Positions 47,264 to 54,426 of a stretch of 64,000 nt of DNA are shown here, one piece after another. The notes under the pieces are model-generated. The model saw only the letters and a list, made by a program, of their open reading frames with translations, made no database searches and was not told the DNA's origin. Position numbers and translations under genes: made by a program. Numbering within the stretch: position 1 is the stretch's first letter; each line of letters starts with the position of its first letter. The stretch is taken from assembly GCF_900111375.1 (NCBI RefSeq), contig NZ_FOHB01000003.1, positions 62,001 to 126,000 of the forward strand. The letters run 5' to 3'. The stretch comes from Pedococcus cremeus (lineage in GTDB: Bacteria; Actinomycetota; Actinomycetes; Actinomycetales; Dermatophilaceae).

Positions 47264-49015
47264 ATGAGTACTGCGGCTGCCTCGAACCTGTCACCAGCGT
47301 TCCCGGAGAGGGCCGCCTGGGGGACCGCGTCGAAGCTGCGCGCCTGGCAGGCGGCCGCGCTCTCGATCTACCTCGAGCAGGCCCCTGAGGACTTCCTCGC
47401 CGTCGCGACGCCCGGGGCCGGCAAGACCACCTACGCGCTGCGGGTGGCCACCGAGCTGCTCGGTCGCGGCGAGATCACCGCCGTCACCATCGTGGCGCCG
47501 ACCGAGCACCTCAAGACGCAGTGGGCCGACGCAGCCGGGCGGGTGGGCATCCACATCGACCCACGCTTCTCGAACTCCTCGGCGCGGCACAGCCACGAGT
47601 ACGACGGCGTCGCCCTGACCTACGCCCAGGTCGCCAGCCGCCCGTCGCTGCACCGCACCCGCACCCAGGGCGAGCGGACCCTGGTGATCCTCGACGAGAT
47701 CCACCACGGAGGCGACAACCTCTCCTGGGGTGACGCCATCCGCGAGGCGTTCGAGCCGGCCGTGCGCCGCCTGGCCCTCACGGGGACGCCGTTCCGCTCC
47801 GACACCTCCCCGATCCCGTTCGTCACCTACGAGCCGGACCGTGACGGCATCCGCCGCTCCTCGGCGGACTACACCTACGGGTATGCCGAGGCGCTGCGCG
47901 ACGGGGTCGTGCGGCCGGTGCTCTTCATGGCCTACGGCGGCGGCATGCGCTGGCGCACCAAGGCCGGCGACGAGATCGCGGCCCGCCTCGGTGAGCCGCT
48001 CACCAAGGACGCCATGGCGCACGCCTGGCGCACCGCCCTGGACCCCAAGGGGGAGTGGATCCCTGCCGTCCTGGCGGCCGCCGACAAGCGGCTGACCGAG
48101 GTGCGGCGGGGCGTTCCCGACGCGGGCGCGCTCGTCATCGCCTCGAACCAGACGGCGGCCCGCGCCTACGCCAAGATCCTCGAGGGCATCACCGGCAAGA
48201 AGCCGACCGTGGTGCTCTCCGACGACGCCGGTGCCTCGGCTCGGATCGAGGAGTTCTCGGCCAGCGACGACCGCTGGATGGTCGCGGTGCGCATGGTGTC
48301 CGAGGGCGTCGACGTGCCCCGCCTGTGCGTTGGCGTCTACGCCACGTCGACCTCGACGCCGCTGTTCTTCGCCCAGGCCGTGGGCCGCTTCGTGCGGGCC
48401 CGCAAGCGCGGCGAGACCGCCTCGGTGTTCCTGCCCAGCGTGCCGGTGATCCTCGAGCACGCGGCGCGCCTGGAGGACGAGCGCGACCACGCCCTCGACC
48501 GCCCCAGGACGGAGGACCCTGAGGCGTCGATGTGGTCGGAGGAGGACGCGCTCCTCGCGGCCGCCAACCGGACGCTGAAGACCGCCGACCTCGACGCACC
48601 CGGGTTCGAGGCGCTGCAGTCCGACGCCGAGTTCGACCACGTGTTGTTCGACGCCAAGCAGTTCGGCCTCAACGCGCAGGTCGGCTCGGAGGACGAGCAG
48701 GAGTACCTCGGCCTGCCCGGTCTGCTCGAGCCCGACCAGGTCGCGATGCTCCTGCACGAGCGGCAGGCGGCCCAGAACACCCGGCGGCCCAAGAAGGCCG
48801 AGGAGCCGGTGGCCGCGCACCGGGCGCTCGCGGCGCAGCGCAAGGAGCTGAACAAGCTGGTGTCGGCGTACGCCCGCAAGACGGGTGCGCCCCACGCGGT
48901 TGTGCACACCGACCTGCGCCGGGCGTGTGGCGGGCCGGCGCTCGACGAGGCCAGCTCCGACCAGGTGACCGCCCGCATCGAGAAGATCCGCGCCTGGTTC
49001 GTCGGCCGGCGCTGA
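47264..49015 (+). CDS. DEAD/DEAH box (SF2) helicase
   Basis: A 583-residue SF2 helicase of the XPB/UvrB-like restriction-helicase style. LRAWQAAALSIYLEQAPEDF (Q-tip-like), motif I ATPGAGKTTYALR near residue 48, motif II VILDEIHHGGDN, motif III LTGTPFRSD, then the second RecA domain with MVSEGVDVPRL and QAVGRFVRARKRG (motif VI). The C-terminal ~120 residues are charged and unassigned. TATCGT about 9 bases before the ATG suggests a near-leaderless transcript, and the in-frame ATG at 47228 lies in the terminator. It is the usual partner of DUF3039 and its role is likely nucleic-acid repair or surveillance, but this is not established. Confidence 0.87.
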   Translation: MSTAAASNLSPAFPERAAWGTASKLRAWQAAALSIYLEQAPEDFLAVATPGAGKTTYALRVATELLGRGEITAVTIVAPTEHLKTQWADAAGRVGIHIDPRFSNSSARHSHEYDGVALTYAQVASRPSLHRTRTQGERTLVILDEIHHGGDNLSWGDAIREAFEPAVRRLALTGTPFRSDTSPIPFVTYEPDRDGIRRSSADYTYGYAEALRDGVVRPVLFMAYGGGMRWRTKAGDEIAARLGEPLTKDAMAHAWRTALDPKGEWIPAVLAAADKRLTEVRRGVPDAGALVIASNQTAARAYAKILEGITGKKPTVVLSDDAGASARIEEFSASDDRWMVAVRMVSEGVDVPRLCVGVYATSTSTPLFFAQAVGRFVRARKRGETASVFLPSVPVILEHAARLEDERDHALDRPRTEDPEASMWSEEDALLAAANRTLKTADLDAPGFEALQSDAEFDHVLFDAKQFGLNAQVGSEDEQEYLGLPGLLEPDQVAMLLHERQAAQNTRRPKKAEEPVAAHRALAAQRKELNKLVSAYARKTGAPHAVVHTDLRRACGGPALDEASSDQVTARIEKIRAWFVGRR

Positions 49016-49453: not shown

Positions 49454-50077
49454 CTAGTCGCGGTCCCAGCGCTCCCGTTCACGGATGACCGGGCGCGCGT
49501 CGAGCTCCTCGGTGACGATGTCCTGCACGATCCGCATGAGCCGGTCGGCCTCACGGCGGATCTCCGGCAGCGGCCGTCCCGAGCGGGCCAGTCCGCCCAG
49601 CCTCAGCTCGACGTACTGCAGGCCCACCCGACCCACCTCGGTCAGGCGCGTGCGGCCCGGCGAGGCGACCACGACCTGGTAGGCCACGGCAAGCGTCTCG
49701 CAGCGGCGGCAGTGGTCGTTGACGGCCACGGCGAGGTTCTGGGCGTCGACGTCGGTGGGGCGGCCGTCGGCCAGCACCACCTGGAAGGAGAGGGACACGG
49801 CACGGCAGCCGTCGCAGGCGGCATAGGCCACGGCGGCGTTGCGGGCCGTGACGCGGTCGGCGTCGGTGTGGTGCACGCCGAGCCCCGACGCGCCTCGACG
49901 GGTGCCGTCGCGGGTGAGCTCCAGGACCTGCTGGTCGGTGAAGGTGACCGAGCGGGCGTCTGGTGCGGTTCCGGATGCCGCTGCCGCACTGGCCGTCGCC
50001 GGCAGCCCGGCCAGCGCGAGCGTCGCTGCCACGACGGCCGCGGCCCAGCGCAGCCGTCGGACCATCGCGCGGCTCAC
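49454..50077 (-). CDS. secreted twin-CxxC protein, last gene of the peptide operon
   Basis: A 207-residue protein: signal peptide (RWAAAVVAATLALAGLPATA) and a domain with an internal repeat. Repeat 1 is NAAVAYAACDGCRAVSLSFQ (80-99) and repeat 2 is NLAVAVNDHCRRCETLAVAY (114-133). The two CxxC pairs (88/91 and 123/126) may form disulfides or bind metal. A charged helical tail follows (about 165-207). GTG 50077 overlaps the stop of the M50-ATPase gene by four bases, so it is translationally coupled. I do not know a name for the family. Its repeats resemble the C-terminal halves of the two small peptides at the front of this operon. Confidence 0.72.
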   Translation of the reverse strand: MSRAMVRRLRWAAAVVAATLALAGLPATASAAAASGTAPDARSVTFTDQQVLELTRDGTRRGASGLGVHHTDADRVTARNAAVAYAACDGCRAVSLSFQVVLADGRPTDVDAQNLAVAVNDHCRRCETLAVAYQVVVASPGRTRLTEVGRVGLQYVELRLGGLARSGRPLPEIRREADRLMRIVQDIVTEELDARPVIRERERWDRD

Positions 50078-52770
50078 CGGGACCCCTCGACGGCCTGGCC
50101 GCGACGGGGGCGGCTGACGGCGAACGAACGGCCCACGGTGGCGGCGAGCTCGAGGTAGGCGTCACGGGTCTCCCGCCGCAGGTCGCCGAGGCTGGTGTGC
50201 GCCCCGGCCTGCAGGGTGACGTCCCAGGGAATGTGCACCACCGCGGAGCAGCGGGCGGCGAAGTGCTGGTCGATGCGGTCGAGCTCGAGGGGTCCCTCGC
50301 CGTGGACGGCGTTGACCACCGCGACGGCACCCTCGACGAGGTCGGCGTGGCCGTGCTCCTCGAGCCAGTCCAGCGTCATCGCGGCGACCCGGGCGCCGTC
50401 GAGGGCGGGCGGCATGACCACCACGATCTGGTCGGCCTCGGACAGCACGCCGCGGATGGCGCTGTCGAGGATGCCCGTGCCCGTGTCGACGAGCAGCAGG
50501 TTGTAGTGCCGGTCGAGCACGTCGATGGCCGTGCGGTAGTCGTCCTCGCCGAGGGCCTGGGTGATCCGCGGGTCGTCGTCGGACGCGACCACCTCCAGCC
50601 GGGAGTCGACCGCCTGGGAGGTGTAGCCGCGCATGTCGGCGTAGCGCTCGATGTACTGCCGCTCCTGCAGCAGGTCGGTGACCGTCGCGGGCGACTCGCG
50701 GCGCATGCGGTGCGCCAGGCTGCCGGCGTCGGGGTTGGCATCGAGCGCCACCACCCGGTCGCCGCGGTGGGTGGCGAAGGTGTGGCCGAGCATCAGAGTC
50801 GTCGTGGTCTTGCCCGCACCGCCCTTGCGCGAGAGCACCACGACGCGGCGGCAGCCGCGGATCGGTGTGCGGACCTGGGCCAGCAGGTCGATCTGCCGGC
50901 GCTCCTCGGCACCCGGGCCGAGGTTCACGGTGCCGCCGGTCACGGCATACACGCCTCGGCGCCAGCCACGGCTGGCCGGATGGGTCCGGCGGCGCAGCAT
51001 GGCCTCCTCGGTGAACTCCGACGCCGTGTGCGGGCCCGGGGCACCCCACCCCGGCTCCTGCGGAGCAGGTGCGGCAGGTGGGGGGCTCGCCGGCACCGGC
51101 GTCGGCGGTGCCGAACCCCGTGGTCCCGGTGGGCGCTCGGACTTCTGTGGTGGCGCCGCCACCCCGTGAGTGGGCGGTGGTGGGGTGGGTGGCGGCGCCG
51201 CCGGCTGGGTGGGTGCTCCCTCCATCATGGGCAGCACGGGCGCAGGCTTCGATCCGGACATCGTGACCTCCGAGGGTGGACGACCCGCGGTCGGCGGGCC
51301 GGGGACGAGGGAGGGCCGGGCGACCCGGCCCACGAGGGCCGCCAGCAGGCGGCGGCCGATGGTGAGGAGCAGCAGCGCGAGCCCCACCAGGGGCAGCGGC
51401 AGCAGCAGCACCGACAGCGTCGAGAGCACCGTCTGGGCGACGTCGCCGGAGCGCACGGCCGACAGCAGGTGCGCGACGTGCTGCTGCTCGGCGGCCCAGA
51501 CCGCGGCGAGCATCGCGGGGGCGTTCCAGACCAGCAGGCACAGGAGGACGACCATGACGGGGACGGCGGTCAGCACCCACAGGGTGACGACTGCCCGGGC
51601 CGCCGGTCGCAGCTCACGCACCCGTGGGCCGGGCTCTCGACCGGGCACCAGGCTGGCGAGGATGGGGCGGATGCGCGAGAAGAGGTCGGGCACCCCGACG
51701 CCGTCGGCCACCACGAAGTAGCCGTCGAGGCGCGCGAGCGGCAGCAGTTGCTGCAGGAGCTCGAGGTGCACGAGGGCGACCGCGAGCACGACGACGTCCC
51801 ACCCGGTCCAGGCGTGCACGCCGACGAGCCCGAGCGCGAAGAGGGCGTTGAAGTAGACGCCGCCGAGGTCGGTGCGCACCCGTCCGGCGCGGCCCAGCCG
51901 GTAGGACGCGGTGACGTCGGTGTAGAAGGCCGGGTAGACGACGTAGACGGCCATGCCGATCGCCCCCGGCTGGGCGCCGCCGTAGCGGCAGGCGGCCGCG
52001 TGGCCGAGCTCGTGGAACAGGGTCGAGGCCAGCAGCACCGCGAGGAGGGCGAGCAGCAGCGTGGGCGTCCGAAGGGTGGCGGCGAAGGCCGCACCCGGGT
52101 CGACCGACTGCAGGAGCCGCACGTCGGCGACGACCAGGGACGAGAGGGCGACCACCACGACGGCCGGGTGGAACAGCGGCGCCAGGAGGTGGGCCAGGGC
52201 CTGCACCACGGGCGCCGGCAGCAGGACGCGGCGCATGCGCAGTGCCAGCACGGGACGCGCGGTGGGCGGTGCCGCGCCGGCACCAGCAGGGTATGCCGTG
52301 CCGGCCTCTCTTCCCGGGGGCGGCGGTGCGACGGCCGGCCGCGATGTGTCATCGGCGGTTTGAGGGGACTCACTTTCCGACCGGTGCGTCGCTTGGGGCG
52401 CCTGGCCGGACAGAGGCGCCGGGTGGGCGGGTGCGGCGATGCCCATGGGGCGCAGCCGCTGCTCGAGGAGCAGGTCCAGGCCCCCTGTCGTGAGGGTGCG
52501 GCCGTACTGCGCGCTGACCCGGTCGGTGACCTGCTCGGCCGTGCGCCGGCCGTCGAGCGCCAGCGCCACCAGGAAGAGCAGGCGGCTGACCTGGAGCAGC
52601 TGCCCGTCACCGCGCTCGACCAGGTAGTGCGGCTCGGTGAAGCCCGGTCCGCCGAACTCACCGAGCAGCCGCACGCCGGCCGCCAGGCGGGGCGGGGCGG
52701 CAGCAGTCCGCGTCGGCTGGGTCGCTGACGACACCGGCTCGGCAAGCTCCCGCGACGAGCCTGCGCTCAT
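50074..52770 (-). CDS. RRE-like / M50 intramembrane metalloprotease / MinD-ParA ATPase fusion
   Basis: An 898-residue protein with three modules. (1) Residues about 33-112 look like a PqqD/RiPP-recognition winged helix: HYLVERGDGQLLQVSRLLFL then ALDGRRTAEQVTDRVSAQYG and a final RLRPMGIAA. (2) Residues about 175-480 are an S2P/M50 metalloprotease: FHELGHAAACRYGG (His253, Glu254, His257) inside a membrane helix, several further helices, and LPLARLDGYF with Asp349 as the third zinc ligand. (3) After a Pro-rich linker (490-575), a deviant Walker A ATPase of the MinD/ParA/EspI type: LSRKGGAGKTTTTLMLGHTF near 646, DANPDAGSLAHRMR, VDTGTGILDS and MPPALDGARVAAMTLDW. ATG 52770 has GAGGGGGTGTCC; GTG 52776 is too close to it. 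A second strong start lies inside at 51261. Confidence 0.85.
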   Translation of the reverse strand: MSAGSSRELAEPVSSATQPTRTAAAPPRLAAGVRLLGEFGGPGFTEPHYLVERGDGQLLQVSRLLFLVALALDGRRTAEQVTDRVSAQYGRTLTTGGLDLLLEQRLRPMGIAAPAHPAPLSGQAPQATHRSESESPQTADDTSRPAVAPPPPGREAGTAYPAGAGAAPPTARPVLALRMRRVLLPAPVVQALAHLLAPLFHPAVVVVALSSLVVADVRLLQSVDPGAAFAATLRTPTLLLALLAVLLASTLFHELGHAAACRYGGAQPGAIGMAVYVVYPAFYTDVTASYRLGRAGRVRTDLGGVYFNALFALGLVGVHAWTGWDVVVLAVALVHLELLQQLLPLARLDGYFVVADGVGVPDLFSRIRPILASLVPGREPGPRVRELRPAARAVVTLWVLTAVPVMVVLLCLLVWNAPAMLAAVWAAEQQHVAHLLSAVRSGDVAQTVLSTLSVLLLPLPLVGLALLLLTIGRRLLAALVGRVARPSLVPGPPTAGRPPSEVTMSGSKPAPVLPMMEGAPTQPAAPPPTPPPPTHGVAAPPQKSERPPGPRGSAPPTPVPASPPPAAPAPQEPGWGAPGPHTASEFTEEAMLRRRTHPASRGWRRGVYAVTGGTVNLGPGAEERRQIDLLAQVRTPIRGCRRVVVLSRKGGAGKTTTTLMLGHTFATHRGDRVVALDANPDAGSLAHRMRRESPATVTDLLQERQYIERYADMRGYTSQAVDSRLEVVASDDDPRITQALGEDDYRTAIDVLDRHYNLLLVDTGTGILDSAIRGVLSEADQIVVVMPPALDGARVAAMTLDWLEEHGHADLVEGAVAVVNAVHGEGPLELDRIDQHFAARCSAVVHIPWDVTLQAGAHTSLGDLRRETRDAYLELAATVGRSFAVSRPRRGQAVEGSR
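51259..51271 (-). promoter_or_regulatory. internal ribosome-binding site and start codon for a separate ATPase
   Basis: GGAGGT, then CACG, then ATG encodes Met504 of the fusion (MSGSKPAPVLPMM). It sits exactly at the junction of protease and ATPase, so a free 395-residue MinD-like protein could be made as well. Confidence 0.6.
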
Positions 52771-52833
52771 GGACACCCCCTCGGTCGGATGGGGGCCCGG
52801 CGCTCTCGCACCGGGCTCCCACCGGATCGGTCG

Positions 52834-53025
52834 TCAGGCCTGGCTGACCGCGACCAGCTGGTTCGCCGAGGCCCACGCCGACGACCCGAGGGAAGCGGCG
52901 TTGACGGCGATGGCGAGGTTGACCGCCGTGACGTTGGCGAAGTTGAACAGCGCGAGGGTCTCCCGTGGTGGGAGCAGCTCGACCGACGTCGCCTCCAGCT
53001 CGGCGATGGACAGGTGCTCGTGCAT
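52834..53025 (-). CDS. small leader-motif peptide 1 (possible precursor peptide)
   Basis: A 63-residue protein. The first half has VELLPPRETLALF (15-27), the second half is NVTAVNLAIAVNAASLGSSA followed by WASANQLVAVSQA, an alternating small/hydrophobic pattern with regular Asn and Gln. GGAAGGAG before the ATG is strong. Its neighbour at 53087 has the same architecture (ELLPTRETL, then NVSATNVALAMN and ATAYANQAVLVNQL). A conserved leader plus variable core beside an RRE-like domain and a membrane protease looks like a ribosomally made, processed peptide. No Cys and few Ser/Thr, so lanthionine chemistry is unlikely. I know no named family. Confidence 0.75.
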   Translation of the reverse strand: MHEHLSIAELEATSVELLPPRETLALFNFANVTAVNLAIAVNAASLGSSAWASANQLVAVSQA

Positions 53026-53086
53026 GGGTGTTGCTCCTTCCAGCCGTACAGCACTGGTGTGGTGGGCTCTTGTGGGCGTCCAGCCG

Positions 53087-53293
53087 TCAGAGCTGGTTCA
53101 CGAGGACCGCCTGGTTCGCGTACGCGGTGGCGGACGACAGGAAAGCGCCCGAGTTCATGGCCAGGGCCACGTTGGTCGCGCTGACGTTGGCCCAGTTGGT
53201 GCCGAAGAGGCCGTGCCCCAACGAGAGCGTCTCTCGCGTCGGGAGCAGCTCGACCGCCTCGTCGAGGAGCTCCTCTGAAGTGAAGGTCGTCAT
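53087..53293 (-). CDS. small leader-motif peptide 2 (possible precursor peptide)
   Basis: A 68-residue paralogue of peptide 1. VELLPTRETLSLG (14-26) matches the leader motif of peptide 1, and the C-terminal half NVSATNVALAMNSGAFLSSA then TAYANQAVLVNQL matches its core pattern. AGAAGGGGGTGAACACC fixes the ATG at 53293; in-frame codons up to 53329 have no site. It is the first gene of the operon running to 49454, 61 bases before peptide 1. It probably shares a promoter in the 353-base gap shared with the divergent BTAD regulator. Confidence 0.75.
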   Translation of the reverse strand: MTTFTSEELLDEAVELLPTRETLSLGHGLFGTNWANVSATNVALAMNSGAFLSSATAYANQAVLVNQL

Positions 53294-53646
53294 GGTGTTC
53301 ACCCCCTTCTCCTGCTCGTGTTGTGTCACGTCGTCCCATCAAGGCCTTCGGGTGTCACCAGGTCGTGCCCCGGTCGCGTCGTATCCGTCGCCGGCCCGTC
53401 CTTGCTGCGGTGCGGCGGCAGCACTGCTCCGTTGCCGTTCCGTGACCGGGGGATCGGCCGCTCTACGCCTTTCGCGGTATGTGTGCGGGGCCGGGACGCG
53501 CCATCGTGATGCGGGTAACGCGGGTTTGCCCGCGTTGGCACCGAGGAGCCCTCGTCGTGCTCGGCTCGCAGCGGAGCAGCCGTTTCGCGTAGGGATCGCC
53601 ACACCACACACACCAGCAACGAGCAGCAGCAAGGGGGTGCACCGAC
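53294..53646. promoter_or_regulatory. 353-base divergent control region between peptide operon and BTAD regulator
   Basis: No gene is convincing here. It must hold both promoters. The clearest element is AACGCGGG-TTTG-CCCGCGTT at 53517-53536, an 8-bp inverted repeat. Nearby short tandem GCAGCA/CACACAC tracts occur close to the regulator. The regulator's ribosome-binding site is AAGGGGG at about 53630. SARP-type regulators usually bind direct repeats; I could not identify a clear pair. Confidence 0.55.
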
Positions 53647-54426
53647 ATGAGCACGGGGCACAATCAGCCAGCCGGTTGGTCGCTGCGGCTGCTCGGCGGC
53701 TTCGAGCTGGTGGGTCCGCAGGGCACCGTGGAGGTGCCCCCCGGTGTGCAGAAGCTGCTCGCCTACATCGCCCTGCAGGGCCGTTCCGTGACCCGCAGCC
53801 GGGTCGCCGACGACCTGTGGCCCGAGGTGGATGCCACCCGCGCGGCGACGAGCCTCCGCTCCGCGCTCTGGCGAGTCAACCGGCTCGGGCCGTTGCTGGT
53901 GGCTGGGCCACAGACCATCCGGCTGTCGCCGGTCGTGGCCGTCGACGTCACGGACCTCGGCGAGATGGCGGCTCGGCTGCGCGACGGGGCCGTCGACGAC
54001 GCGCCCTTCCTGGGCAGCTTCAACCTCGAGCTGCTGCCCGGCTGGCAGGACGAGTGGGTCACCTTGGAACGCGAACGGCTGCGCCAGCTCGAGCTGCAGG
54101 TGCTCGACTCCCTCGTGGAGCAACGGGTCGAGCGGGGGCGGCTCGGCGAGGCGGTCGACGCGGCGATCCGGGCCATCCGGCTCGAGCCGCTGCGGGAGTC
54201 CTCCCACCGCGACCTCATCCGCATCTACGTCGCGGCCGGCAACCGCACCGCGGCGCTCACCCACTACGAGGGGTTCGCGAAGCTGCTGCACCGGGAGCTC
54301 GACATCGCCCCCGAGCCGGCGACGACGGCGCTCGTGCAGCCGTTCCTGCGCTCGCGGCCCCAGCGGCAGCGCTCGCGTGCGCAACCGCGTGGCGGAGGAC
54401 GCCCCAGTGGGTCACGACCGGCCTAG
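53647..54426 (+). CDS. BTAD (SARP-like) transcriptional regulator
   Basis: A 259-residue protein. An N-terminal OmpR-type winged helix (WSLRLLGGFELVGPQGTVEV, QKLLAYIALQGRSVTRSRVA, DDLWPEVDATRAATSLRSAL) is followed by a bacterial transcriptional activation domain made of TPR-like helices (VDVTDLGEMAARL, LEQ-type LERERLRQLELQVLDSL, HRDLIRIYVAAGNRTAALTHYEGF). The C-terminal 35 residues are basic and disordered. It has no ATPase domain, like small SARPs that switch on secondary-metabolite clusters. Divergent from the peptide operon, it is the likely activator of that operon. It ends 14 bases before the convergent Lrp gene. Confidence 0.9.
   Translation: MSTGHNQPAGWSLRLLGGFELVGPQGTVEVPPGVQKLLAYIALQGRSVTRSRVADDLWPEVDATRAATSLRSALWRVNRLGPLLVAGPQTIRLSPVVAVDVTDLGEMAARLRDGAVDDAPFLGSFNLELLPGWQDEWVTLERERLRQLELQVLDSLVEQRVERGRLGEAVDAAIRAIRLEPLRESSHRDLIRIYVAAGNRTAALTHYEGFAKLLHRELDIAPEPATTALVQPFLRSRPQRQRSRAQPRGGGRPSGSRPA

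Follow-up and report, generated by a model that had tools for sequence, protein, structure and literature searches.

The window analyzed here (the whole stretch of DNA, 64,000 nucleotides) carries at 49454-54426 a locus that would be the class A variant of an actinobacterial system spread through the phylum. Our computational analysis revealed its parts, i.e., two small peptides, a protease fused to an ATPase, a twin-CxxC protein and a BTAD regulator, as well as an RRE fold, the protease motifs, linkage of peptides and protease, and a repeat common to the peptide cores and the CxxC protein. In the best reading, to which we give an even chance, an RRE guides the intramembrane removal of the leader, possibly with export, of unmodified or little-modified peptides that assemble at the surface with the CxxC partner. 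The predicted removal of the leader is well supported by homology.

Organization and distribution of the locus

Transcription on the minus strand proceeds from pep1 and pep2 through the RRE-M50-ParA fusion to the twin-CxxC gene, which overlaps the fusion gene by exactly four bases, while the BTAD regulator gene is divergent (Table 1). Every element described in the earlier note was found in its place through translations, Pfam and NCBIfam. Pep1 (MTTFTSEELLDEAVELLPTRETLSLGHGLFGTNWANVSATNVALAMNSGAFLSSATAYANQAVLVNQL) ends in QL and pep2 (MHEHLSIAELEATSVELLPPRETLALFNFANVTAVNLAIAVNAASLGSSAWASANQLVAVSQA) in QA, and the common ELLPxRETL motif and N/A-patterned C-terminus reported for these two tiny genes are indeed present, with order and motif recurring in four other genomes (gene calls in the relatives are heuristic). 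Pep2 is a distinct second subunit, from which the Trp of peptide 1 is absent in 5/5 loci. The locus is more than a chance arrangement, given that the peptides, their order and the motif recur in those genomes, that the changes per codon position relative to the nearest relative (18/15/27 and 12/9/21) reach their maximum at position 3, and that the DNA pattern of the peptide motif occurs, at the stringency used, at this locus only in the 4.33-Mb genome. Pfam and NCBIfam gave no real match for the peptides or the CxxC protein.

Table 1. Coordinates of the locus in the window and of small proteins adjoining peptide arrays
Feature	Position	Strand	Evidence or remark
pep1, leader peptide 1, 68 aa	53087-53293	-	Translation; orthologues in 4 other genomes; profile E=5.8e-24
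Alternative GTG start of pep1	53302	-	Possible
ELLPTRETL motif of pep1	53225-53251	-	
pep2, leader peptide 2, 63 aa	52834-53025	-	Orthologues in 4 other genomes
ELLPPRETL motif of pep2	52954-52980	-	
Fusion of RRE, M50 intramembrane protease, Pro-rich linker and ParA/MinD ATPase, 898-900 residues	50074-52776	-	
Start codon of fusion	52770 (ATG) or 52776 (GTG)	-	
RRE (PqqD-like) domain of fusion, as modelled	52402-52689	-	HHalign, AF2, PDB matches
HELGH of fusion	52000-52014	-	M50 site
RLDGY of fusion	51718-51732	-	M50 site
ParA/MinD ATPase domain of fusion	50077-51024	-	Pfam CbiA/AAA_31
Walker A KGGAGKT of fusion	50806-50826	-	ATPase domain
Secreted twin-CxxC repeat protein, 207 aa	49454-50077	-	Homologues beside or fused to RRE-M50 proteins
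SARP-type BTAD regulator, 259 residues	53647-54426	+	Pfam BTAD 2.7e-20
Divergent intergenic region	53294-53646	.	Presumed control region
Leaderless small proteins beside arrays	L080:8607-8825; L083:9828-10034; L084:1834-2064; L085:3830-3991; L127:10266-10526		

A search of 98 related genomes returned matches in 16, 13 of which are at least 90% complete. The full set of two peptides, RRE-M50-ParA, CxxC and BTAD was found in five genomes (the window and L034-L037), which constitute class A. Class B (L038-L044) consists of one substrate of 216-259 residues (ALPDKEVxS..AANANVAAPIDAAV...IDQ) and an RRE-M50 protein ending in a twin-CxxC domain instead of ParA. A second copy in the genome of the window itself (L042; G000:C6:665500-685000) is of class B, with a long substrate and RRE-M50-CxxC. 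As two relatives (L039 and L043) share its conserved flanking genes, this copy is probably the older, vertically inherited form.

When the peptide profile was run over 397 genomes of the phylum, 12 were positive at E<=1e-4, mostly from distant lineages, and most of them carry tandem arrays of 3-4 peptides (e.g., ...EALPDREAMSLIDANVAAPVNAAVAANVLSDDSLAYANAEQDVTIDQST) adjoining an RRE-M50 gene. A separate protease search of the same 397 Actinomycetota genomes gave a strong RRE-M50 match in 25, and the protease is present in 11 of the 12 peptide-positive genomes vs. 25/397 overall (hypergeometric p=6e-14). In the exception, G103, the array sits right at the edge of a short contig, and in a further genome, G261, peptides and protease are on different contigs. 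A broader profile gave an overlap of 19/21 (p=3e-25), but it was partly built from such loci and the 11/12 figure is the cleaner one. The conserved neighbourhood and the co-occurrence on which the earlier note had made its proposal depend were thus both observed, the peptide/protease/CxxC/BTAD set in five genomes and the pairing of peptide with protease throughout the phylum. In a maximum-likelihood tree of 37 protease cores, most of which adjoin a candidate leader substrate, class A (98/98) and class B (100/100) each form one clade; protease clades follow substrate classes, with the minimum possible number of label changes. In Streptomyces sp. NBC_00557 (L160) the peptide, RRE-M50 and CxxC genes lie side by side, all annotated as hypothetical.

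Leader recognition and the M50 protease

The N-terminal segment of the fusion had been considered RRE/PqqD-like, and the profile comparison that could have overturned this came out in its favour. Alignment of 19 N-terminal domains (alignment A6) with 18 PF05402 domains from related genomes gave an HHalign probability of 94.8% and a score of 42.8, the best of 30 column shuffles reaching 17.9; these values are single comparisons of shallow, A/N-rich alignments. The single-sequence AF2 model shows a bbb-aaa fold (E6-12, E21-26, E31-35, H36-47, H51-62, H68-82; pLDDT 81), and its four best PDB matches in Foldseek are all TbiB1, a lasso-peptide RRE of which the structure in complex with the leader is available (probability 0.94-0.99, E 0.014-0.06). 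Pfam PqqD was not matched by the single fusion sequence. A PDB-sequence search with the RRE profile, in which PqqD 3g2b (E=0.09) ranked below chance-like TAB1 matches, was not used as evidence. The assignment of an RRE/PqqD-type domain is well supported, and the domain is predicted to bind a leader. Conserved in the leaders are EL(E/D) and, a short distance downstream, LPx(R/K)E. The earlier note proposed that the peptides are bound through ELLPxRETL, which may be so; but since the EL(E/D) just ahead of it is conserved too and corresponds to the ELE motif by which daptides are recognised, LPxRE might as well be where the leader is cut.

The M50 site had also been claimed to be complete, and it is: HExxH and a downstream (L/N)DG lie in predicted membrane segments and NCBIfam M50-type models match, which places the protein in peptidase family M50. 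HExGH and [LF]DG are invariant in 12/12 fusions, with hydrophobic segments flanking both in a simple sliding-window hydropathy analysis. The closest named models are the daptide and the LiaK/YydH epipeptide maturation proteases, with daptide_HExxH at 2.6e-22 (79.5 bits, equivalog cut-off 300) and LiaK at 3.7e-10 (39.9 bits, equivalog cut-off 225), and in several members the daptide-model alignment extends into the RRE. A phage origin was rejected, as the RRE-M50 part was unmatched by any phage record.

In daptides, an RRE-M50 protein (MpaP/DapP) cuts off the leader, which ends in an ELExMEAP motif (PMC10036551; PMC12338566), and in epipeptides the M50 protease EpeP is sufficient for maturation and is thought to both cleave and export (PMC10885120). 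For the locus itself we infer binding, cutting, export, assembly and regulation as follows. The cytosolic RRE would bind the N-terminal leader, EL(E/D)...LPx(R/K)E, of the small peptides, and the fused M50 domain would cut it off at or inside the membrane, at a site that the daptide analogy puts close to LPxRE or immediately behind it. The M50 protein itself may then let the core out, as proposed for EpeP. Capture by the RRE and cutting by M50 are deduced from homology, and exit of the core through the same protein is suggested by the example of EpeP and the lack of an exporter. The peptides have a leader-core anatomy and a linked protease, cleavage being predicted. However, no Sec signal was found in the peptides and their hydrophobic stretches are weak in sliding-window hydropathy, which counts against this explanation, in particular against the access of M50 to the peptides and the exit of the core.

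Peptide cores, the CxxC partner and surface assembly

The peptide cores follow the pattern N.A.A.N-turn-S.A.A.A.Q.V.V.Q, with in/out alternation, and in an alignment of 30 peptides 7/7 near-invariant positions (N41, A45, N47, A55, A59, Q61, Q67) have the same parity, as would be expected for strands with one small, polar face. The CxxC protein has an N-terminal hydrophobic, signal-like segment (12-30) and two CxxC, and its repeat, N.A.A.N..C..C.A.A.A.Q.V.V, matches the cores (N.A.A.N.....A.A.A.Q.V.V.Q). The N.A.A.N-turn-A.A.Q.V pattern seen in both is typical of alternating beta strands. Comparison of the peptide core with the CxxC domain gave HHalign probabilities of 77-80% and scores of 28-29, vs. 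at most 14.8-15.8 for column shuffles of the CxxC alignment, and the array cores alone gave 61% and 25.7 vs. 16.7 when shuffled, a similarity that rests on short, A/N-rich sequence. The pep2 core also matches the CxxC-protein profile (E=2.6e-6). An AF2 model of the CxxC protein was poor (pLDDT 49) and was discarded.

The CxxC gene adjoins the protease gene in class A and some array loci, while in 12/12 class B loci the twin-CxxC domain is fused to the protease as its C-terminus. According to hydropathy, most class B proteases have one extra hydrophobic segment ahead of the CxxC domain, which would therefore sit outside the membrane; this segment is absent in class A, which would keep ParA in the cytosol, and there the CxxC protein would be secreted separately. 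The released cores would be unmodified or little modified and, together with the CxxC protein, would most likely pack outside the membrane into a beta-rich surface assembly (fibre, coat or adhesin), a step suggested by the shared repeats. The CxxC protein may act as base, template or chaperone, the unequal peptide pair of class A may provide two subunits, and the SARP/BTAD protein would switch the operon on.

The proposed products resemble chaplins (PF03777) and curli as small secreted beta-forming surface proteins, and CsgA/CsgB in their alternating N/A/Q pattern and in sharing their repeat with a partner protein. The signal peptide of chaplins is of the Sec type, whereas the leader here would be of the RRE type. 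No Pfam match to chaplin or curlin (PF07012) was obtained for the window peptides, and none to curlin for the class B substrate. That the array cores, to which the cores of this locus are most closely related, derive from chaplins is unsupported (score 11 vs. 19.9 shuffled).

RRE-M50 proteases are known from peptide-antibiotic pathways, and chaplins are a known surface amyloid. We tentatively suggest, at somewhat less than even odds, a widespread actinobacterial pathway in which RiPP recognition logic (RRE plus M50) delivers unmodified, self-assembling, beta-rich peptides to the surface rather than antibiotics; as part of the same suggestion, the CxxC repeat protein would serve as template in a curli- or chaplin-like process with a new export signal, EL(E/D)...LPxRE. 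Here the RRE-M50 machinery would serve substrates of another, far more conserved kind, in a system found in about 6% of the sampled Actinomycetota genomes as well as in Streptomyces, whose leader-motif substrates are unnamed in current family libraries. It makes testable whether M50 proteases export their own products, whether RRE leaders can direct secretion in general and whether a surface fibre or coat has gone unrecognised in many actinobacteria. The defined enzyme-substrate pair would also offer a minimal leader-removal system free of modifying enzymes.

Alternative readings and related loci

The BTAD domain of the regulator scored 73.7 bits, above the Pfam cut-off of 22.1, and a BTAD homologue was found at 5/5 class A loci. 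No convincing operator repeats for it were seen in the divergent intergenic region. SARP regulators often control antimicrobial-type clusters. This was counted in favour of a secreted antimicrobial, either a two-peptide bacteriocin or a simple RiPP, with RRE-M50 as its maturation protease and SARP as its regulator, as were the two different peptides per operon and the fact that the nearest proteases come from the daptide and epipeptide antimicrobial pathways. We nevertheless regard such a product as unlikely. No tailoring enzyme, ABC exporter or immunity gene was seen recurring near the loci in an all-by-all neighbour search, which was noisy (out-of-frame ORFs included) and could miss a weakly conserved partner; ABC-type genes near a few loci lie at varying distance and were not counted as linked. 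Moreover, bacteriocins evolve fast, whereas these Asn/Gln/Ala-rich cores are strongly conserved from one genus to the next; the class B substrate, with its length of about 230 aa, does not resemble a bacteriocin; and the flanks of the class B locus are common to three genomes of one family. Those genes flanking the locus in the window that have a match are of housekeeping or unrelated types. A helicase-like ORF at 47264-49015 partly resembles a phosphorothioation restriction protein (TIGR04095, 63/600 bits) and also flanks the locus in L034.

A second alternative is a RiPP class whose modifying enzymes lie far away or are unlinked; it would amount to a daptide relative whose tailoring genes were lost from the locus. 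As in daptides, the M50 intramembrane protease bears an N-terminal RRE, each locus has several short precursors, the leader has an E-L-E element (PMC10036551), and leader removal by the fused protease is predicted here from the genes. However, none of the ten flanking ORFs scanned was named as an aminotransferase, alcohol dehydrogenase, methyltransferase or DUF-RRE protein, and no ABC exporter was found. The invariant C-terminal Thr of daptides is absent, the cores are not aliphatic, the CxxC partner and the ParA domain are extra, and the family proteases score 79-107 bits against the equivalog cut-off of 300. Daptide membership was rejected on the missing Thr, the lack of tailoring genes in the scanned flanks and the 79.5 bits of the window protease, and we find the daptide-relative explanation improbable. 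Epipeptides (EpeX with EpeP/YydH/LiaK) likewise have a related M50 maturation protease, but the similarity is confined to the M50 core (40/225 bits) and no NCBIfam-named radical-SAM epimerase was present in the scanned flanks. Modifying enzymes could be encoded elsewhere in the genome. As none is linked, calling the system a RiPP class is premature. According to the earlier note, no described RiPP class is known to have this set of genes; likewise, no Pfam or NCBIfam model and no open-access paper that we found names the system, a search that could overlook subscription journals.

Other bacteria use M50 proteases to mature pheromones, and LuxR-like regulators lie near some array loci. Short signalling peptides, freed by the protease and sensed by a receptor, are still very unlikely, since cores of ~40 aa with a repeated internal pattern, in arrays of 3-4 similar copies, as well as the long class B substrates with their many repeats and the CxxC repeat partner, are unlike pheromones, and no linked sensor kinase was seen recurring. 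About as improbable is a regulatory site-2 protease, with the peptides as ligands controlling the protease or ParA domain, an idea that the fused ParA/MinD domain and the adjoining transcription factor would favour, but the peptides remain in all other clades, where ParA is missing, and in arrays there are often more peptides than enzymes, as is usual for products.

Regarding the ATPase domain (Pfam CbiA 7e-9, AAA_31 3e-8), its confinement to the class A clade of proteases and the related loci that do without it indicate an add-on that is inessential to the general mechanism, and the earlier suggestion that it powers or positions export is unsupported for the same reason. In the surface-assembly reading it may be a clade-specific regulator or positioner. 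Stand-alone relatives on actinobacterial plasmids, annotated as MinD/ParA family protein, are 46-50% identical to the domain, which here is fused behind an RRE-M50 protease. The contexts of these relatives are mixed, and an ESX/EspI origin of the domain is not claimed.

Further classes of core were found behind the same LPxR-type leader. Chaplin-like, Cys-containing cores (VQVPxGIAANVCG) behind LPEREM leaders occur at L090:9336-9569, L133:7668-7982 and L135:10342-10851, below the Pfam cut-off. One class C peptide, from outside the window locus, scored 15.5 bits against ChpA-C (cut-off 21, E=0.016), and the chaplin-like cores of a related clade gave 47% and 23.7 against chaplins in HHalign vs. 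17.5 shuffled; a link between RRE-M50 and chaplin-like surface proteins in non-Streptomyces actinobacteria is possible. This likeness was counted in favour of surface assembly, although it concerns a class other than that of the window locus. LPER-leader peptides found at Streptomyces-type loci (L132:7481-8908; L161:4840-5100, on a Streptomyces changanensis plasmid) are Gly/His rich in the middle, carry two Cys close to the C-terminus and are likely a further substrate class. Some array substrates (L082:9208-9642, L085:2989-3531) are extended by Gln/Asn-rich repeats (EQNNFIEQNNFE...) of prion-like composition between two copies of the core motif. Small conserved proteins free of the leader motif (KVINK...G.INAVVAANV...SSRQRIVQR) adjoin several arrays and have the core pattern in common with the peptides (HHalign 89% against the peptide core). 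Finally, peptides at L136:7543-7806 and L137:3367-3588 have a very similar C-terminus, GVSDVGVNVDTTGPGWLIGSxGSV, behind an LPxRR leader; they precede a divergent M50 protein, and a gene for a LuxR-like regulator also follows them.
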